Notes under the pieces: generated by a model
Databases searched by the model: none
Seen by the model: the letters and a program-made list of their open reading frames with translations, nothing else
Told to the model about the DNA's origin: nothing
In this document: positions 19,786 through 62,597 of the stretch, piece after piece
Layout: each line of letters begins with the position of its first letter
Numbering within the stretch: the first letter of the stretch is position 1
Origin: Methanocorpusculum labreanum Z
GTDB lineage: Archaea > Halobacteriota > Methanomicrobia > Methanomicrobiales > Methanocorpusculaceae
Reading direction: 5' to 3'
NCBI RefSeq assembly: GCF_000015765.1
Contig: NC_008942.1
Span: forward strand, 821,921-885,920
Length of the DNA stretch: 64,000 nucleotides
Position numbers and translations under genes: made by a program

Positions 19786-19826
19786 TAGGGAAAATCATAT
19801 ATTTTTGAAAGAAAATAAAAAGAATC

Positions 19827-20264: not shown

Positions 20265-20265
20265 A

Positions 20266-20457: not shown

Positions 20458-20497
20458 AATAATCTCATGTATCCACACCAACCCCGATTAAATCCCC

Positions 20498-24421: not shown

Positions 24422-24495
24422 AACAAGCACTTACGCGTTGTTGAGGTGGATTCAATACTGGAAGGGTAAGGTTGGATATGGACACATGAAATACT

Positions 24496-26610: not shown

Positions 26611-26988
26611 CTTTTACTGGTCAAAACTTGAATGCGAGAAGTTGTATTTTCTATTTTGGTTGGGAAATATGATAAAACTACTTGCTATGAATCAAAATTT
26701 GATAATAATTCCCCTTATTACAAAAAATATGATTTTTCGGTTATGCTATCATAAGGTGCATCAAAGATACACTATAAAATCCCAGATGCACCTTCATTGC
26801 CCAAATTCTAAACAGAGTTGTTTATATAAATCTCTACGTACTCAAAACAATACAAGCCCTCATTTACATTCAAACTTACATTTGTTGAGCGGGGTGACTT
26901 GTTCATCAACCAGCCCAAATCACCTTTTCATGAAATGATTATATTTGGAGACTTGCCATCAGATGAATGAGGGAGATAAATTCAATGA
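26611..26988. other. AT-rich intergenic region, no supported gene
   Basis: The 5' side of the DUF4062 gene. A 98-codon frame exists here, but its composition (many Asn, His, Ser, Lys without structure) and lack of a ribosome-binding site argue against a gene. AATATGATAAAAC and TTGTATTTTC are possible promoter elements for the DUF4062 gene. Confidence 0.5.
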
Positions 26989-27125
26989 AAAAAAAACCGG
27001 CACGCCGGTTTTTTCGACAGCATTTTTCAAGTGAGGGTGCGATTCCTGCGTAGGCGATGAGCCGGAGCAGAGCACCCGAACGTAAGGAAAATGCGATTCG
27101 CGGGAATTCGTGGTGATTCGCGGTT
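26989..27125 (-). repeat. Family-2 palindromic element, copy D
   Basis: Starts with the terminator-like hairpin (ACCGGC-AC-GCCGGT) and ends GATTCGCGGTTGG with the conserved outer flank TTTTTATCTCATCTGTGCGCAC. Middle part reads GGTGCGATTCCTGCGTAGGCG and GCCGGAGCAGAGCACCC, the short form. It lies between the DUF4062 island and tRNA-Pro, opposite in direction to copy C on the other side of the island. Confidence 0.75.
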
Positions 27126-27279
27126 GGTTTTTATCTCATCTGTGCGCACCTAACCTTACCCCCTCCCGAATTGGATTAACACTAACACTGCAGAACTCCT
27201 ATTGAGAAAAATCCGGGATTTTTTCGGCCGGCAAAACCGCAACTTAATAAAGAGAGGAGAGCCAATATAAGTGGAGCAA

Positions 27280-31511: not shown

Positions 31512-31646
31512 AACCGCGAATCTCCGCGAATTAACGCGAATCGCATTTTCCTTACGTTCGGGTGCTCTGCTCCGGCTGATCGCCTGCGCAGAATCGCACC
31601 CTCTCTTGAAAAATGCTACAGGAAAAACCGGCGTGCCGGTTTTTCT
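31512..31646 (+). repeat. Family-2 palindromic element, copy E
   Basis: Short form; AACCGCGAATCTCCGCGAAT to the ACCGGC-GT-GCCGGT hairpin and T-run. Together with copy F, 47 bp away and inverted, it forms a pair with nothing between, i.e. the same arrangement as around the GxxExxY gene but empty. Confidence 0.75.
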
Positions 31647-31693
31647 GTTGTTTCGTTATTTTCTCGATTACACAAAAAGCGATGATTAAGGTG

Positions 31694-31829
31694 AGAAAAA
31701 CCCGCACGCGGGTTTTTCCGTCAGCATTTTACCAGACGGCGTGCGATTCTGCGCAGGCGATCAGCCGGAGCAGAGCACGACGGCGCAAGAAAAATGCGAT
31801 TCGCGTTAATTCGCGGAGATTCGCGGTTA
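31694..31829 (-). repeat. Family-2 palindromic element, copy F
   Basis: Inverted partner of copy E. Its terminal stem is ACCCGC/GCGGGT while that of E is ACCGGC/GCCGGT, so the pair shows the same E-type/F-type difference as copies A and B. The outer flank (31830-31905, CGAATTGGATTGAGGATAAC) is shared with the flank of copy D at about 27166-27190. No gene lies in 31390-31968. Confidence 0.75.
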
Positions 31830-31948
31830 AATTATCTCTTGTCTCCACACCCAGTAATACCCTTCTCGAATTGGATTGAGGATAACGCCGCGTAACTTCT
31901 CTTCAAAAAAATCGTTCCTTTCGCGTGCTTTTCACACTGCTTCAAACG

Positions 31949-47872: not shown

Positions 47873-49589
47873 TATAACCCTCAATTATCAGTTTGGAAAG
47901 AGTTTCCATTCTCTTCATTTGTTCACGTGTCACAATCACATTTGCGTAATGCAGATACTCATATGTAGACATAAAGTCCCGTATATATTCTGTGGATACG
48001 GTTATGCCCTTCAGAATTTCCCTCGGGGTCAGAACAGCGATGTTTTGGATACGTTCGACTGATGCGAGAAAAACAACAGTTGTTGTATAGATCCGGCGGA
48101 GTTCGTCCAGATCGTCTGCATCTTTTTCATTTTTGAATATTTCTTTGATCACTTTGATAATCGCAGGCTCAGATGCGATGATTTGCTGCGGGATAATTCC
48201 TGCCTTACCGGTTTGCTTTTGAGATGGTTTTCTTCTTACGGCAAAGCGAACTATCAGGATGATCAGCACGCCGCCGATAATAGCCAAAATAATGTAGTAA
48301 ATGGTTGGATTAAGGATCGTGACAGGATACAGCTCGCTCGTGTTTCCTTCGAGCGGAAACGAGGGATCATCGAAGACCGCGTAGAAAGCATAACCCCCAT
48401 CAATGAGTTCAGCAGAAACGTTCCAAATACCGTTTGCATTGGTGATACCTGTACCGATGTTGATGTGATCCTCAGAGTAGACGGTAACAGGCGCTCCGAC
48501 GACCGGGATATCGTCTTCGGTCCGTAGAGAACCGTAGAGAGTCAGTTTTCGGTGGAGCTCTCCGTTTTCCTGTTCATCTTTGAGAATCGTAACGACCGAA
48601 GGCTTCGAAAGGATAGTGATGTAAACCGGCTTTGAAGTGATGCCTTCGGACTGGACGGTGACTGCATGGATTCCTTCGGATATCCGGCCGATCGTCATGC
48701 TCTTTGCAAAGACCCCTTCAGTATCTTTTGCTACAGTACCCCAGAGATTCGTATCCCAATAAATTGATAATATTGAACCTGTGTTACTCGCGATACCTGA
48801 GACGAGGATTTTATCCCCGTAGTATCCTTTGACCGGGTAGACTGTAAGGGTGATCAAGCCTGATGTGTCAGTATTGATACTTGAACCGGACGTATCTTTG
48901 ATGATGAGTTTACCCGATGAATCCGTTGTTATGGTGATTTTCCCCGAGGTGGCATCAGTAATGATCTGATTTATCAGTAATACTGAATCCTGCAGCTGAC
49001 TCACGTCTAATCCATAATATGCGGCGATCTGTGCCATGATGTCAGCAGAATCGGCGTAGTTCATTGCCGTCAGGGCGAGTTCGTTTCGGATGAGGAGTGA
49101 TTCTGCTTCAAGACTGAATGATCCGAGAATATTTCCTTCGGCAGCGTATTGTTTTTTTAACTCGTCGATCTCTTCGAGACGCACTACATCATTCAGGATG
49201 ATCTGGATGGAGGTGTCGAGAGATGAAGCTTCCTTTTTGTACGTGTTGATGTCGGTTTTGGTCAGACTTATTTTTACGATGTTAGTGCCAAGGCGGCTGA
49301 CCGAGTTTTCATACGCGGCAAGATAGCGAGCAGCATATTCCGGATCATCAATACTTATTTGATAAACCGAGTCGTAGGAAAGGCCGATGATATCTTCCAT
49401 CAACGGCAGAATGGTCTCGGCCTCTTCCGTGGTCATGACGGCTATCGACGAGGGGTCGGTGTGATCGGATGTGCTGGTGTTTCCTTCGGCAGCGTAGAGA
49501 AGCGTGCCGCTTCCGGCAAGCAGTGCTGCAAGCATTACTACAGCGATGACGGCAAGTATTGCGGCAGCTGCAGCGAGGTTTTGCCTCAT
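47862..49589 (-). CDS. Surface protein with Ig-like domains and DUF4129-like C-terminus
   Basis: 575 residues from ATG 49589 (MRQNLAAAAAILAVIAVVML). Signal peptide, helical extracellular part, then Ig/carboxypeptidase-regulatory-like beta domains (LTVYPVKGYYGDKILVSGIA; LTLYGSLRTEDDIPVVGAPV), one membrane helix (YYIILAIIGGVLIILIVRFA) and a cytoplasmic tail with LTPREILKGITVSTEYIRDF. The tail matches the last domain of the next gene, so the two are paralogous in that part. Likely a surface component matured by the MoxR system. Confidence 0.7.
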   Translation of the reverse strand: MRQNLAAAAAILAVIAVVMLAALLAGSGTLLYAAEGNTSTSDHTDPSSIAVMTTEEAETILPLMEDIIGLSYDSVYQISIDDPEYAARYLAAYENSVSRLGTNIVKISLTKTDINTYKKEASSLDTSIQIILNDVVRLEEIDELKKQYAAEGNILGSFSLEAESLLIRNELALTAMNYADSADIMAQIAAYYGLDVSQLQDSVLLINQIITDATSGKITITTDSSGKLIIKDTSGSSINTDTSGLITLTVYPVKGYYGDKILVSGIASNTGSILSIYWDTNLWGTVAKDTEGVFAKSMTIGRISEGIHAVTVQSEGITSKPVYITILSKPSVVTILKDEQENGELHRKLTLYGSLRTEDDIPVVGAPVTVYSEDHINIGTGITNANGIWNVSAELIDGGYAFYAVFDDPSFPLEGNTSELYPVTILNPTIYYIILAIIGGVLIILIVRFAVRRKPSQKQTGKAGIIPQQIIASEPAIIKVIKEIFKNEKDADDLDELRRIYTTTVVFLASVERIQNIAVLTPREILKGITVSTEYIRDFMSTYEYLHYANVIVTREQMKRMETLSKLIIEGYNET

Positions 49590-49852
49590 TTTGCGATGAT
49601 CTCCACGATTTTCATGATGATGATGACGGCAAAGATGCCGACGCCGGCGATCCCAATCAGGCGCTGCCAGCGTGCACTTTTCGGCCGAAGGGTGGTGACA
49701 ACGAAGAACTCGGTGATTATCAAAAAGCCGATGAGCCAGAGTACAAAAAAGATCTCGATATTGATGGTTCGTGCGAGGATCATGATCGCGGCTACTGTGC
49801 CCATCCATGCTGTCAGGATGAGTGCTGCGGTCTGGGTTTTCGCGGGAGCCAT
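49586..49852 (-). CDS. Small membrane protein, first gene of the operon
   Basis: 88 residues, three hydrophobic helices (AALILTAWMGTVAAIMILA; FFVLWLIGFLIITEFFVV; LIGIAGVGIFAVIIIMKIV). Unknown. ATGA overlap with the surface-protein gene; the promoter would be in 49853-49900, where the hairpin mosaic begins. Confidence 0.65.
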   Translation of the reverse strand: MAPAKTQTAALILTAWMGTVAAIMILARTINIEIFFVLWLIGFLIITEFFVVTTLRPKSARWQRLIGIAGVGIFAVIIIMKIVEIIAK

Positions 49853-49896
49853 AGATAATGTATTGATTTGGTGTATTTAGGGTAATAGATTTTGGT

Positions 49897-50340
49897 TTGC
49901 GGCTCATCGACTGCGTCGATGAGCTCAGCTGAGCAAGTTTTCGAAGAAAACTTGCGAGTGCGGGTCGGACACGAAGCGGACGACCTTAGCTGAGGCGGGC
50001 GGCCCACAGGGCGGCCTCAGCGGAGGCGGATTGACGGCGCAGCCGGCAATCTTAGCGGAGCAATTTTCCGAAGGAAACTTGCGACCAAATCTTTGATTTG
50101 CGACTGCGGATTGACGGCGCAGCCGGCAATCTTAGCGGAGCAATTTTCCGAAGGAAACTTGCGACCAAATCTTTGATTTGCGACTGCGGATTGACGGCGC
50201 AGCCGGCAATCTTAGCGGAGCAATTTTCCGAAGGAAACTTGCGACCAAATCTTTGATTTGCGACTGCGGGTCGACGACGCAGTCGTCGAGCTTAGCTGAG
50301 CAAACCGTAGGTTTGCGAACGCGGACCGGAGATGCGATGC
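49897..50340 (+). repeat. Hairpin mosaic block 1 of the defence island
   Basis: 444 bp without a gene. Begins with a 10-bp stem GCTCATCGAC-TGC-GTCGATGAGC, then GCAAGTTTTC-GAA-GAAAACTTGC, GGCCCACAGGGCGGCC, the 80-bp triplicate, GACGAC-GCA-GTCGTC and GCAAACC-GTA-GGTTTGC. Linkers read CTTAGCTGAG, CTCAGCGGAG or CTTAGCGGAG. All in plus orientation. Confidence 0.8.
50026..50265 (+). repeat. Three tandem copies of an 80-bp mosaic unit
   Basis: Units 50026-50105, 50106-50185 and 50186-50265 are identical by eye. Each holds three hairpins: GATTG..GCAGCC..CAATC, GCAATTTTCC-GAA-GGAAACTTGC (one mismatch) and AAATC-TTT-GATTT, plus one CTTAGCGGAG linker. Perfect identity points to very recent amplification. 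Confidence 0.9.
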
Positions 50341-50376
50341 GCATGATGATTCAGATGTGCGCTATGTGTTAAGGGA

Positions 50377-50661
50377 TTAAAGCAATCCCTTTTCGCGGTA
50401 GATATTTGCAATCCCCTCATGCTCAATTTTCCATGAAATCATCTCAAGGAAATCCGCTTTGGAGATGTGAAGCTGAGCTGCCATCTGTGCCTGAAGGAAA
50501 TCAGTGAGTTCCTGATCATTATGACTCATGTGGGTTTTTACAGCGGCAATTTCCCCATTATCCTCAAAGTAATATCGCGGATGCTTCTGCCTGCCGGCTT
50601 CCACGATAAAACCCTTTTTCTTCATAGCTTTCTTTACTGTCTCTGCCTTCAATACCGCCAT
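50377..50661 (-). CDS. HicA-like small toxin candidate
   Basis: 94 residues from ATG 50661 (a start at 50682 overlapping the upstream gene is possible). AMKKKGFIVEAGRQKHPRYY looks like the HicA beta-beta fold with its histidine, followed by GEIAAVKTHMSHNDQELTDF and a helical C-terminus longer than in standard HicA. HicA toxins are small mRNA-binding ribonucleases. The partner would be the gene immediately upstream. Assignment is tentative. Confidence 0.5.
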   Translation of the reverse strand: MAVLKAETVKKAMKKKGFIVEAGRQKHPRYYFEDNGEIAAVKTHMSHNDQELTDFLQAQMAAQLHISKADFLEMISWKIEHEGIANIYREKGLL

Positions 50662-50665
50662 GAGA

Positions 50666-51148
50666 TCACATCCACACGGCATCTTTAAAGCGTTCGCCGC
50701 GGGCCTTTGCAGCTGGGGAGAGGTTTAGAGCAGGGTTGTTGAAAAACCCGAATCCATCTGAAAACTGTAGTTGCGCTTCTTCAATAGCCTCTTTGACGTT
50801 TGGAGATGAAACAAGGATCGAGTATTCTGTATTTGCCAGTTGGATATAGCCGTTTTCTGCAATATTCAATGTTAACGGCAAGGGTTTTTTCAGCTTTTTC
50901 ATCTCTTCGCCAATGAATACGGATTGGAGAAATATAACGCCATACTCTTCTCCTTTGTCTCCAATCTCTACGGTATCCAGGAGAATATTAAGCACATCGT
51001 CGTAGGTCTGATGTTCACGTTTACGAGAGAGGATGCGCTGTTTTGTTTTGGGGTAAACGGGCATCTGTGTCCGTTTTTTGTCTCCATCTATCGCCTGCAT
51101 GATCGTATCTGATAATGGGAAGGGGAAGATAATAGGTTTTGCTGTCAT
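50666..51148 (-). CDS. Hypothetical protein paired with HicA-like gene
   Basis: 160 residues. N-terminal part has PVYPKTKQRILSRKREHQTYD and DVLNILLDTVEI, resembling antitoxin DNA-binding helices; C-terminal half is beta-rich (LPLTLNIAENGYIQLANTEY). Ends 4 bp before the HicA-like ATG. Probable antitoxin or regulator by position, not by recognised family. Confidence 0.5.
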   Translation of the reverse strand: MTAKPIIFPFPLSDTIMQAIDGDKKRTQMPVYPKTKQRILSRKREHQTYDDVLNILLDTVEIGDKGEEYGVIFLQSVFIGEEMKKLKKPLPLTLNIAENGYIQLANTEYSILVSSPNVKEAIEEAQLQFSDGFGFFNNPALNLSPAAKARGERFKDAVWM

Positions 51149-51180
51149 GGAATCGTCAATACGGTCGTTTCTCTGTTTAG

Positions 51181-51392
51181 GGGGCGGGGACCTTTAGGTC
51201 CCTTAGCCGAGGCGGATCGACGGCGCAGCCGGCGATCTTAGCTGAGCAAACAGAATGTTTGCGAGCGGGCGGGTTGGATGCGAGCGAAGCGAAGCAGACG
51301 ACCTCAGCCGAGCAAGTCGATAGACTTGCGAGCAAATCTCTGATTTGCGACCAAGGCTTTGCGTTGCGAGTCGGCCCGCGGTGGAGATGTCC
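51181..51392 (+). repeat. Hairpin mosaic block 2
   Basis: Modules in order: GGGACC-TTTA-GGTCCC, GATCGACGGCGCAGCCGGCGATC-type, GCAAACA-GAA-TGTTTGC, GGTTGGATGCGAGCG..CGACC, GCAAGTC-GAT-AGACTTGC, GCAAATC-TCT-GATTTGC, then the family end GCGGTGGAGATGTCC. Linkers CTTAGCCGAG, CTTAGCTGAG, CTCAGCCGAG. Confidence 0.8.
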
Positions 51393-51404
51393 TCTTTTGC
51401 CGGG

Positions 51405-51600
51405 GTCGCTATTTGTTTCCAATATGCCAGAGCAAAAACAATAAAACAATAATACATGTCACCGTAAATGTCACGGTAAATATTGGCCAATCTGCTATCT
51501 GGTGGTAAGATCATCTATACGGGTACGGGTTGTCTAACGGTTTTTACGCAGCTCAAATATTTGCCGTGCGGATTTGGTGAACGGGCATGCCGGCTTTGTC
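51405..51600 (+). pseudogene. 3'-end remnant of an AlbA-type ATP-binding gene and its flank
   Basis: AATATGCCAGAGCAAAAACA and ATGTCACCGTAA correspond to the last codons of the gene ending at 55102 (AATATGCCGGGGCAAAAACA and ATGTCACGGTAA). Homology continues about 145 bp downstream (CTGCTATCTGG, GGTTGTCTAACGG, TTTACGCAGCTCAAATATTT). Only this tail remains; a family-1 element end directly abuts it on the left. Confidence 0.7.
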
Positions 51601-51947
51601 TTACGAGTGGGGCGAAGCCTTCGCGTCAGGGGTGTCTTTGTAATCTGAAGAGAATCGTTTCATCCTCCAGAAATCCTGTGGTGAATTTTGCAAAATCAGG
51701 ATCATACCAAATATTGATATCATTTTTGGTATGAGGTCATAAAATTCCATACTGCGTATTTTTGCTCTTAGCAGAAGTCCTTCATCATAACCGACTATCT
51801 CATTAGCCGTATTCACCAGCATATGCAGCTTGATCGTGCTGTCAAAACCAGACAGATGAGATAATAAGCAATACTGCGAGGATGCGTTTTTTTGGTTATT
51901 CAACAGTGATGTTCGCGAAAATGACAGTGTATTAGCCCATAGGCAGC
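51601..51947. other. Gene-poor gap before hepT
   Basis: A 100-codon minus-strand frame (51601-51903) crosses this gap. Parts such as STIKLHMLVNTANEIVGYDE and FYDLIPKMISIFGMI look protein-like, so a decayed gene is possible, but there is no ribosome-binding site and no family match. I see nothing else here. Confidence 0.35.
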
Positions 51948-52289
51948 TTATATCTCGTCTTTATTCAGGATCCTGATCAGGAATACATAGAGATCTTCAA
52001 TATCTGTATTTGCGACGGTCCAAACTACCTCAGGATCTATGCGAAAATACTGATGGAACATAACGTTTCGAAAATCCTTGATCTCCTGCCAGGGTATTTC
52101 ATCATGTTCTTTTTTGAACTCCTTGGAAATATGGGTGGTTGCCTCTCCGATGATCTCCAGAGAATGGACAACAAGATCCAATTTGTCTTCATCCAGAAAG
52201 AATGCCTCTTTTTTGACCGAACTGGTAATTTTTCGTATTTTTTCACAGCGCTGAAGCATGTGGTCCAGATAGATATACTCGGATTTCAT
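51948..52289 (-). CDS. hepT: HepT-type HEPN RNase toxin
   Basis: 113 residues, all-helical. The RNase motif Rx4H is R74...H79 in FRNVMFHQYF, and H79-Q-Y81 gives the RX4HXY form. In characterised HepT/MntA pairs the tyrosine of this motif is AMPylated by MntA, which neutralises the toxin. Start overlaps the mntA stop by 4 nt. Confidence 0.88.
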   Translation of the reverse strand: MKSEYIYLDHMLQRCEKIRKITSSVKKEAFFLDEDKLDLVVHSLEIIGEATTHISKEFKKEHDEIPWQEIKDFRNVMFHQYFRIDPEVVWTVANTDIEDLYVFLIRILNKDEI

Positions 52290-52615
52290 GCCTCTGCCTT
52301 ATTTGCTTCAAACAGTATCATATCGCGTTCTATGTAGGGGCGAAGTGACGGTGCCAGCCATCGTACGGGAACTAAATCGACCGTTCTTCCAAACAGATCT
52401 TCCAGATACTGTTTGAAGGCGAAAAATTCCCGAAGAGGGACCCCGCCTGTTTTGAATGCATACAATACATCTACATCTGAGTCGGGCGTGTCTTCTTCCC
52501 GACTCACGGAGCCGAAGATTCCGATCGTTTCAATGCCGAAACGCTCGCGTATCTCCGGAAGGTTTGCCTCTAATTTCGTGAGTACCTCCTTTTTGATGCT
52601 TGCGTATTCGGACAT
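52286..52615 (-). CDS. mntA: MntA-type minimal nucleotidyltransferase antitoxin
   Basis: 109 residues from ATG 52615 (MSEYASIKKEVL). GSX10DXD motif complete: G35, S36, D47, D49, and a further acidic strand VDLVPV. It should AMPylate HepT. First gene of the pair; 52616-52834 upstream holds the promoters of this pair and of the divergent zeta operon. Confidence 0.88.
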   Translation of the reverse strand: MSEYASIKKEVLTKLEANLPEIRERFGIETIGIFGSVSREEDTPDSDVDVLYAFKTGGVPLREFFAFKQYLEDLFGRTVDLVPVRWLAPSLRPYIERDMILFEANKAEA

Positions 52616-52834
52616 GATACAGGTATATGGTACTTTGTCGGTGGATGGTAATGAGGTTTTGCCTGCCTCAGGCATGGCATACTTTTAATGGAAATAATAA
52701 ACTATGTACAAACGTGTTTGATCAAAGATGAAAGATACTACGATTTTTTTACGTGCATCTCCTGCAGAATTCAGGCAAAAGATATATGTGAGTTTGAATC
52801 TTAATGAATACATATAGAACAGGAGGTGCAGCAT

Positions 52835-53143
52835 ATGATACGAAGAGGTAAAGCATCCCGCAGAATATATGAAATCACGGATAAAAATCTCAAAATGACA
52901 GTACATGATGCAGTCCCAAAGCGGGGCACCGGTGATACAGGCGGATCTGCAGGTTTGGCGGATACACACGCAGCGCGGGTGATATGTATCACAAAGCCGC
53001 AGCTATCCAGAGCGTCTTTGGGAATCTGTGCAGCGATATCTCAGGAGAATATGACCTTCAGCACAGATTATCATACAATAGATGCAGTTTTAATGAAGAT
53101 GACGCAAAAAACTGCTGATGTGCTTAATTTGAACAATTCATGA
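52835..53143 (+). CDS. Candidate antitoxin for the zeta-type kinase
   Basis: 102 residues from ATG 52835, with AGGAGG 8 nt upstream, the clearest ribosome-binding site of the island. N-terminus is basic (MIRRGKASRRIYEITDKNLK); KNLKMTVHDAVPKRGTG and the C-terminal TDYHTIDAVLMKMTQKTADV are mixed alpha/beta. No known family recognised. It overlaps the zeta gene by 4 nt (ATGA) and lies in the usual antitoxin position. Confidence 0.6.
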   Translation: MIRRGKASRRIYEITDKNLKMTVHDAVPKRGTGDTGGSAGLADTHAARVICITKPQLSRASLGICAAISQENMTFSTDYHTIDAVLMKMTQKTADVLNLNNS

Positions 53144-53838
53144 ACTATTTTTTCATTTTTGCAGGACCGAACGGGTCGGGCAAATCCACTGTGATCGGGA
53201 ATTTTGCAGCATCTCCATTCAGCTTTTATGATTCGAATGATGCATTATATATCAATGCGGACTATTATGCCAAATTGGATCCTGTCGTTAAAGCTATGCC
53301 GGAAGGCAGAGAGAAGGATCTGGCTGCATGGCACGGGACAAATGCATGGCGCACGAAGGCATTGAGGGACAGGCATCACAACATTAAATGGGAGACGGTT
53401 TTTTCTCATCCGGGAAGAATGGATGTTATTAGAGAAGCAAAGGAACTGGGGTATTTCGTTATACTGGTGTATGTGACAACGATCGATCCGGCCATAAATG
53501 TGGAACGTGTACTGATGCGTGCTGCACAGGGAGGACACGGTGTTCCCGAAGAGAAGATACGCAGCAGGTATGAACGGTCGGTGAAGCTGCTGCCGGATAT
53601 GCTTGATCTGGCGGATGAAGCATTGGTCTATGACAATTCTTATCATAAATCTCCTCCTGGATTGATCTTTGGAAAGATCGGGGGCGAATATATGGTTTTG
53701 AACAGAGATAAAATGGATGCGGCGCTGTTTTCATGGGTCCGCCGGAATCTTGTCGAGCCTCTGGAAGAAAAGTCGAGATTCTGTTTAGTCTTAAATGAGG
53801 AGATCTCCAATCTTTTTATCCGGGACCATTATCCGTAG
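53140..53838 (+). CDS. Zeta-toxin family P-loop kinase
   Basis: 232 residues. Walker A GPNGSGKST at 9-17, INADYYAKLDP (substrate Asp), a kinase core with KWETVFSHPGRMDVIREAKE, and ERVLMRAAQGGHGVPEEKIR (arginine lid). Zeta toxins phosphorylate UDP-N-acetylglucosamine; in an archaeon without peptidoglycan the target would instead be surface-sugar metabolism, or the protein acts on something else. Confidence 0.82.
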   Translation: MNYFFIFAGPNGSGKSTVIGNFAASPFSFYDSNDALYINADYYAKLDPVVKAMPEGREKDLAAWHGTNAWRTKALRDRHHNIKWETVFSHPGRMDVIREAKELGYFVILVYVTTIDPAINVERVLMRAAQGGHGVPEEKIRSRYERSVKLLPDMLDLADEALVYDNSYHKSPPGLIFGKIGGEYMVLNRDKMDAALFSWVRRNLVEPLEEKSRFCLVLNEEISNLFIRDHYP

Positions 53839-53880
53839 AGCAGCATTTTTTTCACGGAGACTCTGAACAGATAGAACTGA

Positions 53881-54038
53881 CGAGGCGGGGCCTTAGATCC
53901 CTTAGCTGAGGCAGATCGACGGCGCAGCCGGCGATCTTAGCTGAGGCGGGCCGGTCCATAGGACCGGGCTTAGCGGAGCAAATCTCTGATTTGCGACCAA
54001 GGCTTTGCCTTACGAGTCGGCCCGCGGCGGGAGTATCT
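53881..54038 (+). repeat. Hairpin mosaic block 3
   Basis: Modules: GGGGCC-TTA-GATCCC, GATCGACGGCGCAGCCGGCGATC-type, CCGGTCC-ATA-GGACCGG, GCAAATC-TCT-GATTTGC, AAGGC-TTT-GCCTT. Linkers CTTAGCTGAG (twice) and CTTAGCGGAG. The family end GCGGCGGGAGTATCT runs straight into the broken AlbA-type gene. Confidence 0.8.
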
Positions 54039-55102
54039 GTTCAGGTGATGAATCCATCGCTGCCCCTCAGCATATTTTGAATTCTCTCATATTGAAAGGT
54101 CAGAATATGACCTTTGACGCACTGCCAAGTCCATAGAAACTCTCTGATGTAAGTTTCACCTATCTTAAAGCCACATTCAAAAACAGGCTGAATGAACCTG
54201 AAATAACAGATCGTGACCTGGCTTCATTTGGTCTCATTTTATCTGACGGGCGGCTGACGTATGCCGGAGCATTGCTTTGCGACCAGTATATTGTCAGCCA
54301 GTCACGCATATTCTGCACCCGGTGGAAACATCTCACAAAAGGAACCGTTGGGGAAGATGCTTTGGATGACAAAGAGTATGAGGGGAATCTTCTCTCTCTT
54401 CTTGAAAATGCAGAAGTGTTCATTAAGAATAATTCTAAAAAATCATGGGGCGTTAGTGAAATGCAGCGTGATGAGCATGAAGATTATCCTCATTCTTCAG
54501 TTCGCGAAGCTCTGATCAACGCCATTATACATCGGGACTATCAGATCATCGGTTCAGAAATACATATTGATATGTATCCGGACCGGGTTGAGATTACTTC
54601 TCCGGGAGGAATGCCGGATGGTTCCAAAATTCAGGCACTTGATGTTTCCACGATCCCGTCGATGAGGAGAAATATGATCATCTCTGATGTGTTTGGCCGA
54701 CTGCGTATAATGGAGAGGCGCGGCAGCGGTCTTAGCAGAATAATTGATGGATACAATGATTTTGAGGTTAAACCGGCATTCTATTCTGAATCTTCCTATT
54801 TCCGTGTTACGCTGCCAAATAAGAATTATTCTGTGCAGGATACTGCCGTATCTTCCTTTATCCAGCCCCGTGTTATGTTATCTCCTTCGGAAGAGAAAGT
54901 GTTGGAACTTATTGCGGTTAATCCTGCCATTACGGGAGAAAGGATAGCCGAAAATCTTGATGTGTCTTTACGTCATGCAAAGAGGTTATTGGCGGAGTTG
55001 AAGGAAAAGGGTGCTATTCAGCGTATTGGTTCTGCTAAATCCGGTCATTGGGAGATTCTTATCAATATGCCGGGGCAAAAACACCAATACATGTCACGGT
55101 AA
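54035..55102 (+). pseudogene. Broken AlbA/ATP-binding transcriptional regulator-like gene
   Basis: The frame reads AAPQHILNSLILKGQNMTFD, an in-frame TAG at 54134-54136, then FTYLKATFKNRLNEPEITDR, LTYAGALLCDQ, SRIFCTRWK, SSVREALINAIIHRDY, ITSPGGMPDG, RRGSGLSRII and a C-terminal winged helix (GERIAENLDVSLRHAKRLLA). This is the C-terminal two thirds of an AlbA-domain/divergent GHKL-ATPase protein. The N-terminal AlbA DNA-binding part is missing: the mosaic element lies where it should be. A shortened product from an internal start (near 54272 or later) is possible. Confidence 0.75.
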
Positions 55103-55250
55103 ATGTCACGGTAAATGTCACCGTAAATAGCAGCCAGTCTGCTATCTGGCGGTAAGATCATCTATACAGTTACGGGTTGTCTAACGGTTTTTACGCAGCT
55201 CAAATATTTGCCGTGCTGATTGGGTGAACGAGTATACCGGCTTTGTCTTG
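55092..55250. repeat. Direct copy of the 51,455-51,600 sequence with 12-bp tandem repeats
   Basis: Three consecutive ATGTCAC(G/C)GTAA units start in the last codons of the gene (two units in the other copy). Then CTGCTATCTGGCGGTAAGATC, GGTTGTCTAACGG and GCTCAAATATTTGCCGTGC match 51495-51580 closely. Together with the gene tail the duplicated stretch is about 180 bp. Confidence 0.85.
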
Positions 55251-55252
55251 TG

Positions 55253-55308
55253 AACAAGCGAGGGCTTGAAGCCCGAAGCGGAGAGCAAATCTTTGATTTG
55301 CGCCCCCC
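55253..55308 (+). repeat. Hairpin mosaic block 4 (short)
   Basis: Two modules only: GCGAGGGCTTGAAGCCCGAAGC and GCAAATC-TTT-GATTTGC, followed by a C-run. Plus orientation. Linkers are reduced. Confidence 0.7.
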
Positions 55309-55394
55309 CTTCTCCCTCTCCCACCCCAGATGATGAACCTGATTTTGTCACCAATACTATATACTTTTAGTGACATAATGATACATACTATAAT

Positions 55395-56000
55395 ATGTAT
55401 AATGATACCTATCATGAAAAAATCCGGGAGAGAATAACCACATCAAAGAGAGGCACAATATTCGTCATCTCTGATTTTGCCGACATCTCCCCGACCCCCA
55501 CGATAAAAAAAGTATTATCACGGCTAGTTCAAGACAAAACGATTCGCCGGATCATGCGGGGAATATACGAATATCCCATCTACAATGCATTCCTTGATGA
55601 ATACGTCGCTCCCTCACCTCATGGGATAGCAAAAGCGCTTGCACGCAATTTTGGCTGGACCATTGTCCCCTATGAAGATGCTGCCCTGAATATGCTCGGG
55701 ATCTCTACCCAAGTCCCTGCTTCATGGACGTATGCTTCTGACGGCCCCTACAAAAAATACGCATATGGAAATGTCACGATACAATTCAAGCATACCTCAA
55801 ATAAAGACATCACGAATCTTTCAGCAAAATCCGCACTGATCATTCAGGCATTGAAAGCGATCGGCAGGGATAACATGAATGATACATTCATCAAACAATT
55901 CTCCGATATGCTCACGCTGAATGAAAAAGAATCCTTATTGGAGGATACAAAACGCTCATCTGCCTGGATCTCCGGAACGATCAGACAGATATGTGCATAA
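55395..56000 (+). CDS. abiEi: AbiEi-type antitoxin (type IV TA / DUF6088)
   Basis: 201 residues. N-terminal winged helix (RITTSKRGTIFVISDFADIS, KKVLSRLVQDKTIRRIMRGI), then the AbiEi C-terminal domain (PHGIAKALARNFGWTIVPYE). It represses its own operon and counters AbiEii without a stable complex. ATACTATAATATG upstream is a TATA-type element. Six bp before abiEii. Confidence 0.85.
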   Translation: MYNDTYHEKIRERITTSKRGTIFVISDFADISPTPTIKKVLSRLVQDKTIRRIMRGIYEYPIYNAFLDEYVAPSPHGIAKALARNFGWTIVPYEDAALNMLGISTQVPASWTYASDGPYKKYAYGNVTIQFKHTSNKDITNLSAKSALIIQALKAIGRDNMNDTFIKQFSDMLTLNEKESLLEDTKRSSAWISGTIRQICA

Positions 56001-56006
56001 AGAACC

Positions 56007-57020
56007 ATGAAAAATATTGGAAAACGTCCGGCAGAAGACCGTGAAGCATTATTCAGGAACACTGCTGACAAGATGGGGATCAATGAGGCGATTATTGAGA
56101 AAGACTTCTGGGTCTGCTGGATGCTGGATTATCTTTTTCACGACTGCCCCTGGAAAAATACTCTGACATTCAAAGGAGGCACGAGCTTATCAAAAGCATA
56201 CGGGCTGATCGATCGTTTTTCTGAAGATATTGATCTGATCCTTGACTGGTGTATTCTGGATTATGATAAAGACGAACCCTGGAAGGATCGGACAAAGAAT
56301 CAGCAGGATCACTTTAACAAAGAGGCAAATCACCGTGCCGAAGAGTTTCTCAAGGATATATTTCTCCCGCAGATCACAAATGATCTATCGGAGGAACTTG
56401 GCATTTCTGTCGATATGGGGATCCTGGCTGACGATAAACAGACAATAACCTTCAGGTATCCACATGGTTTTTCCGATGCATCTATCCTTCAGGAGATCCG
56501 TCTGGAGATAGGGCCTCTTGCTGCATGCACTCCATCCGGCTGGGAGACGATCCAGCCGTATTCTGCCGAAAAATATCCGAATCTCTTTGGGCAAAAGTCA
56601 ACCGATGTTCTAACCGTGCATCCGGAACGGACGTTCTGGGAAAAGATCCTTATCCTTCATAGCGTGGCAAATCTTCCAAAAGGAAAGCCGGTTCCCTTAC
56701 GATATTCACGTCATTATTATGATGTCGTGAAAATGGGAGATTCGAAGGTAAAAGCCAAGGCATTTGCCGATCTGGATCTATTAGAGATGGTAACTAAATT
56801 CAAAATGAAATTTTATCCTCTTTCATGGGCAAACTATGAGCAGGTTTTCGCTGGTGAGATCCGGCTGCTGCCTTCGGATGTTCATATGGCGGCTCTAAAG
56901 TCTGATTATTCCCGTATGCAGAGTATGATGTACGGGGATGTTTTGGATTTTGAGGAAATTCTTGAAAAGTTAGGGGCACTTCAGGAAGAGATTCAACAAT
57001 TGATGAAGACCAGATCTTAA
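56007..57020 (+). CDS. abiEii: AbiEii nucleotidyltransferase toxin
   Basis: 337 residues. N-terminal EKDFWVCWMLDYLF, nucleotidyltransferase motif KGGTSLSKAY at 56-65 with FSEDIDLIL (D74, D76), then VHPERTFWEKILILH. AbiEii-type enzymes act on tRNA or other RNA 3' ends and stop growth in phage-infected cells. With abiEi it forms an abortive-infection module. Confidence 0.9.
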   Translation: MKNIGKRPAEDREALFRNTADKMGINEAIIEKDFWVCWMLDYLFHDCPWKNTLTFKGGTSLSKAYGLIDRFSEDIDLILDWCILDYDKDEPWKDRTKNQQDHFNKEANHRAEEFLKDIFLPQITNDLSEELGISVDMGILADDKQTITFRYPHGFSDASILQEIRLEIGPLAACTPSGWETIQPYSAEKYPNLFGQKSTDVLTVHPERTFWEKILILHSVANLPKGKPVPLRYSRHYYDVVKMGDSKVKAKAFADLDLLEMVTKFKMKFYPLSWANYEQVFAGEIRLLPSDVHMAALKSDYSRMQSMMYGDVLDFEEILEKLGALQEEIQQLMKTRS

Positions 57021-57031
57021 ATATGACAAGC

Positions 57032-57280
57032 GAAGGCGGGGTGAGCCGTTAGGCTCGCCCTCAGCGAAGCAAACCGTAGGTTTGCGATTAAGGCGGGCTG
57101 CCCCGCAGGGGCGGCCTCGGCCGAGGCGGATTGACGGTGCAGCCGGCAATCTTAGCGGAGCAAGTTTTCGAAGGAAACTTGCGACCAAGGCTTTGCCTTG
57201 CGAGCAAATCTTTGATTTGCGAACAAGCGAGGATCGAAGACCCGAGTCGGAGAGCAAGTCGACAGACTTGCGAACCCCCC
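57032..57280 (+). repeat. Hairpin mosaic block 5
   Basis: Modules: GAGCC-GTTA-GGCTC, GCAAACC-GTA-GGTTTGC, CTGCCCC-GCA-GGGGCGG, GATTG..GCAGCC..CAATC, GCAAGTTTTC-GAA-GGAAACTTGC, AAGGC-TTT-GCCTT, GCAAATC-TTT-GATTTGC, GGATCGAAGACCC, GCAAGTC-GAC-AGACTTGC. Linkers CTCAGCGAAG, CTCGGCCGAG, CTTAGCGGAG. Nine modules, the richest block. Confidence 0.8.
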
Positions 57281-57299
57281 TTCCCGGCGAACCGGATCG

Positions 57300-57592
57300 A
57301 ATTTGTTTAAGCGGGATTCTTTGGATGTACTTTGGTTTCTTGTACGGCATACGTGCGGACGCATGAGAATTCCGCCGCGAATCATTATGCTTCGCTTTGC
57401 TCTCCGACTCGGGCATTTTGTCCGCGGGCATCATATTGTTGACGTCAACAAACTGATGTGATACTCTCCATTTTACTGATTCAAACGAAATTTTCGCTGT
57501 ATTCCCGCCCGGCCAAAAATTCCGCATCCATGCCAAATATCTGACTTCGAACTATCCGGTTAAACCGGACAGTTGGGATTTCATTTAAAAGA
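57300..57592. other. Family-2 remnant and gene-free gap before RhuM
   Basis: 57320-57385 (GATGTACTTTGG...TTGTACGGCAT...GTGCGGACGCATGAGA...CGCGAATC) is a decayed family-2 start and flank, homologous in inverted form to 4240-4320. 57390-57592 carries no recognisable gene. Confidence 0.5.
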
Positions 57593-58672
57593 TTATCTAT
57601 TTTCATTACACTCACTATCTTTGCTGGAATCAGATTTAGGGATATATACTAGCTTTTTTAGCACATCTTCCAACTCATCTTCATCCTGCGCAGTTTCCCG
57701 CTCCAGCTCCCGTGCCTCGAACACCTCGAACTCCCGGGATGCCTTACTCTTCGCCCGCTCCATCGAAACCTTCCCGGCACTCGTAAGAATACTCATATCA
57801 TTCAGCCGGAGAATCGCTTCCAGCTTCACCTCCCAGTCATGCATCGTCATAACCTTTCTGGAACGTGCCTGCTGCTCCGCATACTCCAGAAACTGATTCA
57901 CCAGCGAATTCATCGTCGTGATCTCCTCACTCGAAAGATAATTCTTCGCCGTCAAAACATCAGCCAGACGAATCTTCCCGTTTGGACTCTCCTTCCATGT
58001 CGAAAGCCCCATATGCGGCAGATCGGCATTCGCCCGCAAAACCATGATCTCCGCCGCCGTATGACCGTGAACCGCAAAATGGATCTTATTCTGCACCGCT
58101 GCAAAAAACTTCTTCGCAGCAGGATGATTCTTATCATAATCCACACTCAGCGCGTAAATATCCCGAACCTTCAGATACAACCGCTTCTCTGACGCACGAA
58201 TCGCACGAATCCGCTCAAGCAGCTCATCGAAATAATCCTGACCAAACCCTGCGGGCTCCTTTAAACGCTCATCATCAAGAACAAACCCTTTCACCACATA
58301 CTCCTGCAAAAGCTTCGTTGCCCACTTCCTAAACTGCGTCCCGCGGGCAGACCTCGCACGATATCCTACCGCCAAAATCATCTCCAGATTATAGCAGACG
58401 ATCGAACGGACGACCGACCGACCGCCCTCATCCTGCTCCACATCAAAAACCCGGGTGACTCTCTCCGGCTCAAGCTCACCCTCCTCGAAAATATTCGCGA
58501 TATGTTCACTCACCGTCTTTGGCGACCTATCATACAAATCAGCAATCAAACGCTGAGATAGCCACACCGACCCCTCATACAGTCGAACCTGAACACGCGT
58601 ATTCCCCCCGTCCGTATTATACAGCAGAAACTCAGATAGCTCCTCGACAGGGGTGAGACCCTTTCCGCTCAT
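57593..58672 (-). CDS. RhuM family (virulence-protein-like) protein
   Basis: 359 residues. VRLYEGSVWLSQRLIADLYD, SPKTVSEHIANIFEEGEL, YNLEMILAVGYRARSARGTQ and FRKWATKLLQEYVVKGF are the RhuM/COG3943 signature (KilA-N/BRO-like DNA-binding region). Such genes are frequent in defence and toxin-antitoxin islands; function unknown. C-terminal 60 residues are charged coil. ATGA overlap with the small upstream gene. Confidence 0.82.
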   Translation of the reverse strand: MSGKGLTPVEELSEFLLYNTDGGNTRVQVRLYEGSVWLSQRLIADLYDRSPKTVSEHIANIFEEGELEPERVTRVFDVEQDEGGRSVVRSIVCYNLEMILAVGYRARSARGTQFRKWATKLLQEYVVKGFVLDDERLKEPAGFGQDYFDELLERIRAIRASEKRLYLKVRDIYALSVDYDKNHPAAKKFFAAVQNKIHFAVHGHTAAEIMVLRANADLPHMGLSTWKESPNGKIRLADVLTAKNYLSSEEITTMNSLVNQFLEYAEQQARSRKVMTMHDWEVKLEAILRLNDMSILTSAGKVSMERAKSKASREFEVFEARELERETAQDEDELEDVLKKLVYIPKSDSSKDSECNENR

Positions 58673-58953
58673 ACATCCACCCCAAGCTTCGAAAGAAAAC
58701 CTGCCGGTCTCTTCTCTGTTTTTGCGAGATCTCCCTCAAGAACCCTGACCAACGCTTTCAGATAGGTCACTTCATCGAGCAGGCTCCAGGAGCGCAGGAG
58801 CCTCTCTTCTATTATCTCACCTTCCTTCATCAGCTCAAGCTGGTTTTTCCGATTTTCTTTCCCATTTGTATAGAGCCTGCCTGAATATACATTTTTTTTG
58901 AAAAAGAGCGGCTTTGGTTGTTCCAGAAGTGTTTTGGGAATATCATTCATCAT
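58669..58953 (-). CDS. Small protein coupled to RhuM gene
   Basis: 94 residues (MMNDIPKTLLEQPKPLFFKK; LLRSWSLLDEVTYLKALVRV). No family recognised. It overlaps the RhuM start by 4 nt and lies in the antitoxin-like first position. Promoter AATATAAAT near 59008. Confidence 0.5.
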   Translation of the reverse strand: MMNDIPKTLLEQPKPLFFKKNVYSGRLYTNGKENRKNQLELMKEGEIIEERLLRSWSLLDEVTYLKALVRVLEGDLAKTEKRPAGFLSKLGVDV

Positions 58954-59032
58954 ATCTGACCTCCTGTCCGGGTATCTCCGAACGTGTAATCAATCTATGA
59001 TTTAACGCAATATAAATACCTGACCGCGCGGT

Positions 59033-59241
59033 GGCGGGGTGAGCCGATAGGCTCGCCCTTAGCCAAGCAAATCTCTGATTTGCGACTGCGGGCTGACCCG
59101 AAGGGGCGGCCTCAGCGGAGGCGGATCGACGGCGCAGCCGGTGATCTTAGCGGAGGCGGGGACCTTTAGGTCCCTCAGCCGAGCAAACAGAATGTTTGCG
59201 ACCAAATCTCTGATTTGCGAGCCCGACGCGGTAGAGTATCT
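59033..59241 (+). repeat. Hairpin mosaic block 6
   Basis: Modules: GAGCC-GATA-GGCTC, GCAAATC-TCT-GATTTGC, CTGACCCGAAGGGGCGG, GATCGACGGCGCAGCCGGTGATC-type, GGGACC-TTTA-GGTCCC, GCAAACA-GAA-TGTTTGC, AAATC-TCT-GATTT, end GACGCGGTAGAGTATCTC. The flank after it (CTATTTTCGAG, CCAGGTAGTTCATCTTC) recurs after block 7. 59242-59506 has no supported gene. Confidence 0.8.
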
Positions 59242-59506
59242 CTATTTTCGAGACCCCTACACGATTCCAGGTAGTTCATCTTCATCTGCAGCAGAACATA
59301 CCATATCTGAAATGAGTGATTGCCATGAGAATGAAGACCGAGCAGGGAGTGAGAATGGGAGATTAAAAAAAAAAGAGTTGGTTTGGTGGGTTTAGAGGGG
59401 TTTAGCTTAGAATGGACACATGAGATGGGTAATAGATATTCGATACCTCCACTTTCAGGTCACCGGAGCACAAACCCAAAGTGGAGGGGGGCCGGTTTCC
59501 CGGCCT

Positions 59507-59755
59507 TCACTTTCTTTCCCGTTTCCGGCGCTCTTCCTCAAGTTCCTCTTCATGCCATTTGTTCATTTCCTTAATGACGATGCGGCGCTGGAGTTCGGAC
59601 GGCTTGATGCCTTCCTTTTTTGCACGGCGGTAGAACCATTCCTTGTTTTTCATCGGGATCCTGGTTGAGATCCGGCCGTTGTATTCGACGGGCGTTTCCA
59701 TGATGACCTGGCTCATTTTGAGACAGATCCGGGTAGTAGATTCGTCTTGAATCAT
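59507..59755 (-). CDS. Small basic protein, possible DNA-binding
   Basis: 82 residues from ATG 59755, with AAGGAG 5 nt upstream. Contains NGRISTRIPMKNKEWFYRRA and GIKPSELQRRIVIKEMNKWH, resembling a ribbon-helix-helix repressor, followed by a Glu/Arg-rich helical tail. No partner toxin adjacent. The region upstream is a structured, gene-free segment. Confidence 0.55.
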   Translation of the reverse strand: MIQDESTTRICLKMSQVIMETPVEYNGRISTRIPMKNKEWFYRRAKKEGIKPSELQRRIVIKEMNKWHEEELEEERRKRERK

Positions 59756-59814
59756 TCTTTCTCCTTGTTGTGTTCTCTTTGGAACAATGCCTGCGTAAGG
59801 CAGGTTATTCAATG

Positions 59815-60060
59815 TCGATTCATGCCGGTTGACCCAGCGGCACGCCTTTTTTGTCGAGAGAGGGACAGAGTACCCTCTTCGTGTTTTCCGTTGACCGGCA
59901 CGATTCCCGCGCCGGCATGTTCATTCAGAGAATGAAAAAAGGCTTCAGGGTTCACCCGTGGCAGAGGGAGTAGTATGTGTGATACCTGACTCCATGCTCC
60001 TAGCAGCTTGCCGTCCCGCAGGACTCGTGCTCCGGGCTAGCCCCTGCCTTTTTTCATTTA
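59815..60060. ncRNA. Structured gene-free segment, candidate non-coding RNA(s)
   Basis: Two parts. (1) 59821-59919 is closed by 8-base arms CATGCCGG and CCGGCATG with an inner stem AGAGGG/CCCTCT. (2) 59931-60058 is bounded by a perfect 13-base inverted repeat, AATGAAAAAAGGC and GCCTTTTTTCATT, so a T-run terminates it in either direction; inside are GTCC-TGCG-GGAC and TGCT-CCT-AGCA hairpins. I tested by eye for SRP RNA, RNase P RNA and 5S RNA motifs and found none. Strand is undecided. Confidence 0.45.
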
Positions 60061-60442
60061 CCTGATGTTGTTAATACTTAGTTGGTTTTTTAGATATTTA
60101 ATGGTTATTTTTTGCGTATTACGATAATTTTACGGGTATTTGTCTGTTTTAGTGTTGAGATTCGTTCTAAGATGTTATAAACCCCAGACCGCGCGGTGCG
60201 ATAATGCCCCGGGAAGGAGGAAAAATTGGGTGCTCAGTGAGAGAGATGGGTTACGAAAAATGCAGAAAAACCGGCTGGAAGCTTATGGAATATTGTTGGT
60301 CTGTTTTTTGATCAGGGAGGTTTGTCTGCCCGGATAGGAGAGATCAGGATGGAAAACGGTTAGAGCTGTCTGAAGGAGGAGGGAGGGGGTGTATGGATGC
60401 ATGTGTGGGCACGATTTTTGTGCGGATAGGGAAGAGCGCGTG
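60061..60442. other. Gene-free region
   Basis: No supported gene. Short frames here lack ribosome-binding sites and family resemblance. CAGACCGCGCGGTGCG at 60185 resembles CTGACCGCGCGGTGGCG just before block 6, perhaps a former element flank. Confidence 0.4.
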
Positions 60443-60663
60443 CGGGGTGAGCCGACAAGCGAGGGTCGTAGACCCGAGTCGGAGAGCAAACCGAAGGTTT
60501 GCGAACAGGCTCGCCCTTAGCTGAGGCGGGTTGGACACGAAGTGGACGACCTTAGCCGAGGCGGATCGGTCCATAGGGCCGGTCTCAGCGGAGCAAATCT
60601 TTGATTTGCGACCAAGTCGATAGACTTGCGATCCGGCGCGGAGCGACCCGCGGTGGAGATATC
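60443..60663 (+). repeat. Hairpin mosaic block 7, with nested module
   Basis: GAGCC...GGCTC hairpin interrupted in its loop by 50 bp (60458-60507) that carry GGGTC-GTA-GACCC and GCAAACC-GAA-GGTTTGC. Then GGTTGGACACGAAGTGGACGACC-type, CGGTCC-ATA-GGGCCGG, GCAAATC-TTT-GATTTGC, GCAAGTC... AGACTTGC, end CCCGCGGTGGAGATATCC. Linkers CTTAGCTGAG, CTTAGCCGAG, CTCAGCGGAG. Confidence 0.82.
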
Positions 60664-60738
60664 CTATTTTCGAGGCACATACACGTTTCCAGGTAGTTCA
60701 TCTTCTGCAGAATATTCATGGGTAGCAGGATCCGTTTT

Positions 60739-60852
60739 TGGGGTGAGGGGGGTGACGCAGCTGACGACCTTAGCCGAGGCGGGCTCTGCCCCGCAGGGGT
60801 GACCTCAGCCGAGCAAATCAGGAATTTGCTCTCCACTTCGGATCTATGACCC
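60739..60852 (+). repeat. Hairpin mosaic block 8 (right end of the island)
   Basis: Starts GGGGTGAGGGGGGTGACGC; modules AGCTGACGACC, CTCTGCCCC-GCA-GGGGTG and GCAAATC-AGG-AATTTGC (one mismatch). Linkers CTTAGCCGAG and CTCAGCCGAG. Lacks the usual GCGGTGGAGATATCC end. 60853-61028 holds nothing identifiable. Confidence 0.7.
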
Positions 60853-61028
60853 TTTCTTGAATCTCCACGAATTATTGTATGAATAACCACACATCAGATG
60901 GGCTAAATATTACACACGCATAAACCAGTTACATAAAACAAATCTAAAACACAAATCCATATTATGACTCAGGGTACAGTATTCAAATAGGAGTAGTTTC
61001 ATTTGAATAACTTCCATTTTTTACTATT

Positions 61029-62597
61029 CTATTCTCTCTTATTATTCCACAGCAATTTTCTATCCAGGCTGGGAGGAAATATCCTGAGTATATTTTTTCG
61101 CTCTCCTTTATTTAATACCGCACACCATAAAATGACGCAGTAAACTGTAGCAATCGAGCCTCCGGCGAGGAACGTTGGTACAATTCCGCTAATGGAAACA
61201 ACCTGCATGAATAAGAATCCAAGCACCAACAGGATGAGGAGTGCAACGTAACCGGGGAATGCGGGCTTGACAAATGTGATGAGAGGGGCTTTGAGAATGT
61301 GAGCTGCGTATATAGGACCAAATAATCCGTCTGTTATGAGAGTTGTTATAGTAGTGGCAAGAGCTATACCGTAAATCCCCATATTAAATACAAGCGATAA
61401 AGTAAGAGCTAGTATGACATTAAACCCACCTGCCACAAGATATATGAGGCCTGGAGTGCGAACACGAATGTAGGCAGCTGTAATTGACCCACAACATGAA
61501 AACTGGACCATAAATATAGAGGCAATTACAGTAATCCATACAAGCAAGGAGAGGTCTGCGTAGTTTTGACCAACCCATATTGTCATTAACTGGGACGAAA
61601 ATACACAGACAAGCCCTACAAGAAGTGCGGTTAACAGGGTTACTATTTTTACAGAGAAGGCTGTAAATGTTACCATACTCTCTTTGTTATCTTTAGCACG
61701 GTATGAGAATATCATCGGCGAAAAGCAGGTAGTTATCAAACCAAGAAGACCAACTATGAGTGTATTCCATGTGAGAACCAGAGAAAATTCAGTAGCGACG
61801 ATGGATCCAAGTACTATGTTAGTAATTATTAATGCCGCTTGATTTCTCAGGACAACACCCATTCGTAATATTGCTAACCAAAATGCAGTGCTTAGTATTT
61901 CTTTCAGATGGAATAGAGAAAATGCTGTGATAGAGATATTAAGGAAAGGACATATTTTTCTGGAAAATACAATGGAGAGAAATAATGCCATGCATGCAGC
62001 TATTAGATATGATAATCCAACAAAGGGAAGTGTTGGTTCGAGTAAGGTGAATAGGAGAACCACAGATATAATTTGTGCGATAAGGTTGGTATTGTTCACA
62101 TGGTTTTTGAGGTCGATACGATTATATGCGAATAATATCACACTGAAATTGCTGCTCCAAGCCCTGATAAGGACAGATATTATCACAAGAGCGAATAACC
62201 AGATTACATCAGTTGCAACTGTATCTCCAATATTAAATATTGTTGGAGATAAAAGTGCAAAGATTAGTCCAATGGGGGTTACTATGAGAAGAATCACCAG
62301 TGTTCCAATGAGGGAGGTGTTAAAAGTAATTACTGCTTTTTTTCGATCTCCGCGCTGGAGGTCAATGGTGAGATAGCGTGATATTGCTTCATTAACTACA
62401 TCTATAAATAGAGTGATAAAACTGGTAAAAGATGTGGCAAGAGGAATCAATCCATAGGCTGATTCACCAAGAGTCTCAAGAAAAAATGGAACTAAGGCAA
62501 GACCTATGACCAGATTGATGGTCAAATATGCTAAATTTGAAAGCAGATTTTTTGGTAATTGCTTTTGAAATTGGATATCAAGTGTTTTCTCGGACAT
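61029..62597 (-). CDS. Oligosaccharide flippase family membrane protein (Wzx-like)
   Basis: 522 residues, 12-14 membrane helices. N-terminal LPKNLLSNLAYLTINLVIG and FLETLGESAYGLIPLATSFT are the polysaccharide-biosynthesis/MATE-like flippase signature. It likely moves lipid-linked oligosaccharides to the outside for S-layer glycans. AT-rich and together with the next gene suggests a surface polysaccharide locus extending to the right. Confidence 0.82.
   Translation of the reverse strand: MSEKTLDIQFQKQLPKNLLSNLAYLTINLVIGLALVPFFLETLGESAYGLIPLATSFTSFITLFIDVVNEAISRYLTIDLQRGDRKKAVITFNTSLIGTLVILLIVTPIGLIFALLSPTIFNIGDTVATDVIWLFALVIISVLIRAWSSNFSVILFAYNRIDLKNHVNNTNLIAQIISVVLLFTLLEPTLPFVGLSYLIAACMALFLSIVFSRKICPFLNISITAFSLFHLKEILSTAFWLAILRMGVVLRNQAALIITNIVLGSIVATEFSLVLTWNTLIVGLLGLITTCFSPMIFSYRAKDNKESMVTFTAFSVKIVTLLTALLVGLVCVFSSQLMTIWVGQNYADLSLLVWITVIASIFMVQFSCCGSITAAYIRVRTPGLIYLVAGGFNVILALTLSLVFNMGIYGIALATTITTLITDGLFGPIYAAHILKAPLITFVKPAFPGYVALLILLVLGFLFMQVVSISGIVPTFLAGGSIATVYCVILWCAVLNKGERKNILRIFPPSLDRKLLWNNKRE

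Follow-up and report, generated by a model that had tools for sequence, protein, structure and literature searches.

How does one hairpin come to lie inside the loop of another? Methanocorpusculum labreanum Z raises this question at one place of the 64,000-nucleotide stretch analysed here (the window), which falls within a single 1,804,962-bp contig of a genome that has been annotated with 0 transposable elements (PMC2686161). The original prediction, made for positions 60449-60512, read the site as a hairpin module that had been inserted exactly into the loop of another hairpin and had left a 3-bp ACA target duplication. It suggested that modules move as units and choose hairpin apices as their targets.

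The nested hairpin and its array

The described parts are present base for base. The arms GAGCC (60449-60453) and GGCTC (60508-60512) are in place, ACA stands on either side of the insert (60455-60457 and 60505-60507), the extra 50 nt (60458-60507) hold two full hairpins, and compact sister blocks are found on the + strand at 57040-57059 (loop GTTA) and 59038-59057 (loop GATA). The outer stem exceeds the earlier GAGCC/GGCTC description, given that GGTGAGCC (60446-60453, preceded by GCGG at 60442-60445) pairs with GGCTCGCC (60508-60515). Between these arms, all on the + strand, lie GACA, the remnant of the original loop (60454-60457; GTCA, GTTA or GAGA in other copies), and the inserted double-hairpin cassette, here called U, which runs from AGCGAGGG to GCGAACA (60458-60507, 50 nt) and consists of a first hairpin, GGGTC-GTA-GACCC (60463-60475), and a second of type B, GCAAACC-GAA-GGTTTGC (60486-60502). 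Folding predictions give the nested hairpin the shape of a three-way junction on the + strand, with an energy of -37.9 kcal/mol (z -3.6; equalled by 2 of 200 shuffles), and reach -30.9 kcal/mol on the minus strand; for the block 60430-60660 the z is -4.7 and none of 200 shuffles folds as well. The nesting is beyond chance because six genomes contain the same nested unit, 72 nt long, in 16 distinct contexts, next to 31 contexts with the compact form.

An array at 60442-60664 opens with the nested hairpin and continues on the + strand with the linker CTTAGCTGAG (60516-60525), a type-A hairpin GTTGGACAC-GAA-GTGGACGAC (60530-60550), the linker CTTAGCCGAG (60551-60560), a further type-A hairpin ATCGGTCC-ATA-GGGCCGGT (60565-60583), the linker CTCAGCGGAG (60584-60593) and the type-B hairpins GCAAATC-TTT-GATTTGC (60593-60609) and CAAGTC-GATA-GACTTG (60613-60628). 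Its right end (60630-60664) is common to a module-free core element of other species of the genus. A second, short array on the same strand (60769-60831) has two linkers and hairpins at 60783-60803 and 60811-60831. Type-A cassettes are built from GCGG, an 8-10 bp stem and the linker CTYAGCNGAG, and type-B cassettes from GAG, CAANNN-loop-NNNTTG and CGA. The stem sequences are diverse yet complementary, with a covariation score above all 500 shuffles (25 type-A 21-mers and 16 type-B hairpins), and each of the slid controls has fewer paired cells and lower covariation. Mispairs in distinct type-A hairpins, counted over related and hence non-independent sequences, are biased by strand (G.T 85 versus A.C 10; A.G/G.A 102 versus C.T 5), and one strand is therefore the folded strand.

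A structured RNA, in which the three-way junction is under selection for an RNA function and owes nothing to mobility, would account for the better folding of the + strand, the covariation, the strand-biased G.T and G.A mispairs and the position of some arrays downstream of a stop codon and ahead of a likely terminator. However, the arrays have no preferred orientation to their flanking genes (20, 18, 17 and 13 in the four classes), so they are no general feature of sense 3'-UTRs, and the idea that every array acts as a sense-strand 3'-UTR element is rejected. Wholesale swaps of hairpins at orthologous sites, the presence of the same insert in unrelated outer stems and the lack of any Rfam match above the gathering score in 49000-61500 also speak against an RNA function, which we consider unlikely as the explanation of the nested form. 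Beside the array, the non-coding stretch 59800-60215 is highly conserved (94-98% in G020) and adjoins the palindrome GACCGCGCGGTG, which occurs again at ~59020, as well as a TATA-like box; it is possibly a conserved RNA gene without a match in Rfam. Several arrays at 53140-58672, a segment with 96-99% identity to M. parvum XII (G005), have toxin-antitoxin or defence-like genes on either side (zeta-toxin-like AAA, DUF6088, AbiEii, RhuM). The window also has a CRISPR array (17461-18719), the repeats of which have CGTGCCC/GGGCACG arms.

The arrays form a clade-restricted, REP/BIME-like mosaic in which the grammar is fixed and the stems covary. High numbers of the linker CTYAGCNGAGGCGG (9-71 copies) are confined to six of the 25 genus genomes; elsewhere (150 genomes of the order) it is at background. 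No match was obtained in a search of phage DNA with a 431-nt block or in viral contigs with the exact cassette patterns, and in the literature on Methanocorpusculum repeats, mostly openly available papers, we found no description of these arrays. U was found in two contigs deposited as 'Acholeplasmataceae' and 'Clostridia' bins (L205, L208), which are probably mis-binned because they carry Methanocorpusculum genes, arrays or core elements. The array ends are parts of the module-free core element, GGGGTGCGG...CGCGGTGGAGATATCC, which further species have without modules, often as head-to-head pairs. It is found at 8560-8720 of the window and in L158, L159 and L172, often head-to-head at a distance of ~50 nt, and in more species than the modules are; it looks like an ancestral palindromic element in which the arrays grew.

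Recurrent loop insertion and its junctions

Loop nesting is real and recurrent in Methanocorpusculum. The search for a second module-in-loop case, on which the original prediction had staked its claim, returned U in three further, unrelated hairpin loops and a different cassette, V, in a fifth. U fills the loops of GTTGGCGAC-GAA-GTCGACGAC (L111, L130, L133), GTTGGACGC-TGAA-GCGGACGAC (L099, L125) and a CCCTT..AAGGG hairpin (L130, with an empty copy in L144), and one copy (L129) has two tandem U inside the GGTGAGCC loop. V, a double-hairpin cassette of 56 nt unlike U, occupies GGC-GATNA-GCC loops, one in each arm of an inverted element (19572-19786/20264-20477), at 20332-20387 on the + strand (GGC-G^ATNA-GCC) and at 19662-19717 on the minus strand. 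Empty copies of its target element lie at 31694-31849 and 26987-27126 on the + strand and at 31512-31646 and 24479-24634 on the minus strand. U and V have a common architecture and both begin AAGC.

The modules do behave as units, as had been proposed. An active choice of hairpin apices is conjectural, given that U also stands in tandem and at non-loop GATTC^GCG sites and that the nested unit at 60446-60515 most likely came preassembled. Within the window, further U cassettes on the + strand are found in tandem position after a type-B hairpin (57226-57272) and, as a U-type copy, outside a type-A loop (55257-55302). U also occurs head-to-tail with the junction ACA^AGCGAGG, and its ends are therefore preset. 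When U is removed and the flanks are joined, a hairpin apex results at 18 of 38 non-tandem sites versus 157 of 1186 random nearby positions (13%). Once relatives are collapsed, apices account for ~4 of the 8 target families (p about 0.014), an enrichment that is suggestive, not overwhelming. Independent loop events are few, at about five target families, and detection favours loop over stem insertions because a stem insertion destroys the arms used in the search.

The 3-bp target duplication does not stand. Left and right trinucleotides agree in only 7/16 nested GGTGAGCC copies and differ in the other 9, which is not the constant-length target-site duplication of a MITE or transposon; empty sites in relatives and paralogues, the other mark of such elements, are present. 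The right trinucleotide is ACA in 16/16 copies and the left one is ACA in 7, TCA in 7, TTA in 1 and AGA in 1, which resembles the variation among the final three bases of compact loops. The constant ACA on the right is the end of the cassette itself, and ACA also forms the boundary of head-to-tail U copies (GCGA-ACA-AGCGAGG). A check of the flanks for a constant duplication of 2-4 bp was equally unsuccessful, with junction repeats of 1, 3, 4 or 5 bp at other targets; these lengths arise because U and V begin AAGC and the targets begin A, AAG or AAGCG. The ACA pair at 60455-60507 is explained without transposition. A transposition of U straight into this loop, with a 3-bp ACA duplication as its trace, would agree with ACA on both sides here and with the existence of other loop insertions, but the variable left trinucleotide next to a constant right one, the same ACA between head-to-tail copies and the finding of the nested unit preassembled elsewhere at 94-100% identity make this earlier reading highly improbable. 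Most likely, 60446-60515 received a ready-made nested unit, with no new loop insertion there.

Empty copies, filled copies and turnover

Empty sites, which the original prediction had called for, were found at paralogous and orthologous places, although no orthologous empty locus was found for 60446-60515 itself. A short repeated gene is followed by the GTTGGACGC hairpin, which is empty in four cases (G009, G020 and two in G023) and filled in two (G009 and G005); further copies have no array at this place. Two sets of orthologous loci, whose flanks are ~77-95% identical, begin with a nested hairpin in one species and a compact one in the others: nested in L053 against compact in L013 and L089, and nested in L095 against compact in L197 and L123, one species of the second set having a compact GGTGAGCC-GACA hairpin. 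At such places the arrays themselves, in both hairpin content and length, have diverged far more than the flanking DNA. M. parvum XII (G005) has DNA 96-99% identical to 54000-59141 of the window, but its array there has several extra modules.

The filled and empty copies and the orthologous loci make the compact form the likely source of the nested one and show that whole cassettes are exchanged. The opposite polarity, in which the long form is ancestral and the compact form is its deletion product, draws on the short direct repeats around U, which could recombine, and on the presence of nested forms in six of six module-rich genomes. No compared site shows the long form to be ancestral, however. 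Compact forms outnumber nested ones and their loops are more diverse (31 copies, 9 loop types), the GTTGGCGAC hairpin is compact in 23/26 copies (strict pattern), and the L053 and L095 orthologous loci have compact hairpins in the other species, including the compact GGTGAGCC-GACA hairpin. Hence, we hold deletion to be very unlikely.

Routes to nesting and their relation to known systems

We favour, at a probability of roughly 45%, a reading in which the composite of type-A hairpin and U arrived preassembled, arrays recombine, and loop insertions arise through a break at the apex followed by copying repair. On this view the site would be a single member of a mosaic array, with U occupying the apical loop of a common type-A hairpin, and the composite would have entered the array at 60442-60664 ready-made. 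Arrays would gain, lose and exchange whole hairpins through recombination or copying between repeated cassettes. An extruded hairpin may break at its unpaired apex, and a neighbouring cassette would be copied in during repair, with 1-5 matching bases deciding where the junctions fall; the resulting composites would then spread via array recombination. Insertions at the apex would survive because both stems stay able to pair. We infer the apex break, the copying repair and the lack of a dedicated transposase. The many U sites that are non-loops (tandem, GATTC^GCG) count against break and copying, and the precise cassette ends (AGCGAGGG on the left and GAACA on the right, in three targets) are no harder to reconcile with a site-specific process than with microhomology repair.

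A dedicated enzyme would account better for these precise ends. Y1/RAYT transposase (PF01797) was found in 0/25 genus genomes, with control genomes positive, and reverse transcriptase (PF00078), which a retrotransposed element would need in its host, is absent in four of the six module-rich genomes (G000, G009, G010 and G023); both were rejected as drivers, being absent from module-rich genomes or unlinked. The sole candidate enzyme seen, and a putative one, is GxxExxY, a PD-(D/E)XK protein (PF13366/TIGR04256) of 145 aa encoded at 19827-20264 between 197-bp inverted repeats that are 94% complementary (19572-20477). Inverted repeats flank 21/24 tested GxxExxY loci in the genus (at least 100 bp in 14), compared with 1/150 random window positions, 4/68 module loci and 0/25 core loci. 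The same repeat is also found as inverted pairs that lack the gene, for example at 31512-31849, and outside the genus GxxExxY has short repeats only (27-31 bp; 3/6 loci over the cut-off).

The cassettes might accordingly be non-autonomous mobile elements served in trans by a dedicated enzyme with a specificity for folded single strands or cruciforms, with the GxxExxY nuclease as one candidate. The precise cassette ends in several targets, the shared architecture and AAGC start of U and V, the inverted repeats around the GxxExxY genes and the presence of V in those repeats argue for it. Against it stand the absence of a fixed target duplication, the lack of a Y1 transposase in the genus and the copy number of GxxExxY, which does not follow module number: there are 2-5 copies in module-rich genomes and 9-18 in the module-poor G006, G011, G012 and G013. 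We regard a dedicated enzyme as possible, though somewhat unlikely. A fuller version, in which a nuclease, possibly GxxExxY, cuts folded hairpins at the apex and double-hairpin cassettes are inserted or exchanged there with precise ends and no fixed duplication, the grammar being kept as the hairpins turn over, is in our estimate decidedly unlikely. In the four genomes with 9-18 copies per genome, GxxExxY genes are often oppositely oriented neighbours a few kb apart; most other complete genus genomes have 1-5 copies.

Hairpins that lie one inside another have precedents in REPs and organelles. REPs have been recorded inside other palindromes, larger or smaller (PMC3733652), palindromes of Volvox organelles are often inserted within one another (PMC2670323), and the GC clusters of yeast mitochondria merge and shuffle (PMC4478555). 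The Methanocorpusculum arrays resemble REP/BIME elements in being many-copy short intergenic palindromes with conserved linkers, mosaic arrays and covarying stems; as in the 20-40 bp palindromes of REP arrays, cassettes are joined by a short linker, CTYAGCNGAG. They differ in that two-hairpin cassettes nest in the loops of other cassettes and whole hairpins are replaced at orthologous sites. Their catalogued cassette feet are GCGG (type A) and GAG (type B), not the GTAG/CGTC tag, and RAYT, as noted above, is absent from all 25 genomes. With mitochondrial double-hairpin elements, GC clusters and Volvox palindromes, U and V share mobile-looking palindromic units of ~40-50 nt that merge and nest, and the two adjacent hairpins of the mitochondrial elements are found in both cassettes, which is a likeness, not homology. 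The organelle palindromes are eukaryotic and have no sequence relation to the present ones, whereas here an archaeal chromosome has a fixed linker grammar and loop-edge insertion with empty sister copies.

The insertion sequences IS1397, IS621 and ISPsy8 target REPs (PMC1525189) and, like the present cassettes, have a palindrome as the preferred target; they carry transposase genes and defined ends, whereas the insert described here is geneless, 50-56 nt long and leaves no constant duplication. Integron attC arrays are variable hairpins that are read as one folded strand, as these arrays are, but the Methanocorpusculum arrays are without cassette genes.

The capture of hairpins inside hairpin loops is a simple accretion route to branched nucleic-acid structures, and the empty and filled sister copies make this accretion directly observable. 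The arrays keep their structure and grammar while their sequence is replaced at orthologous places, in a genome without annotated transposable elements, and the driver, whether an enzyme or plain replication and repair, thereby becomes testable.
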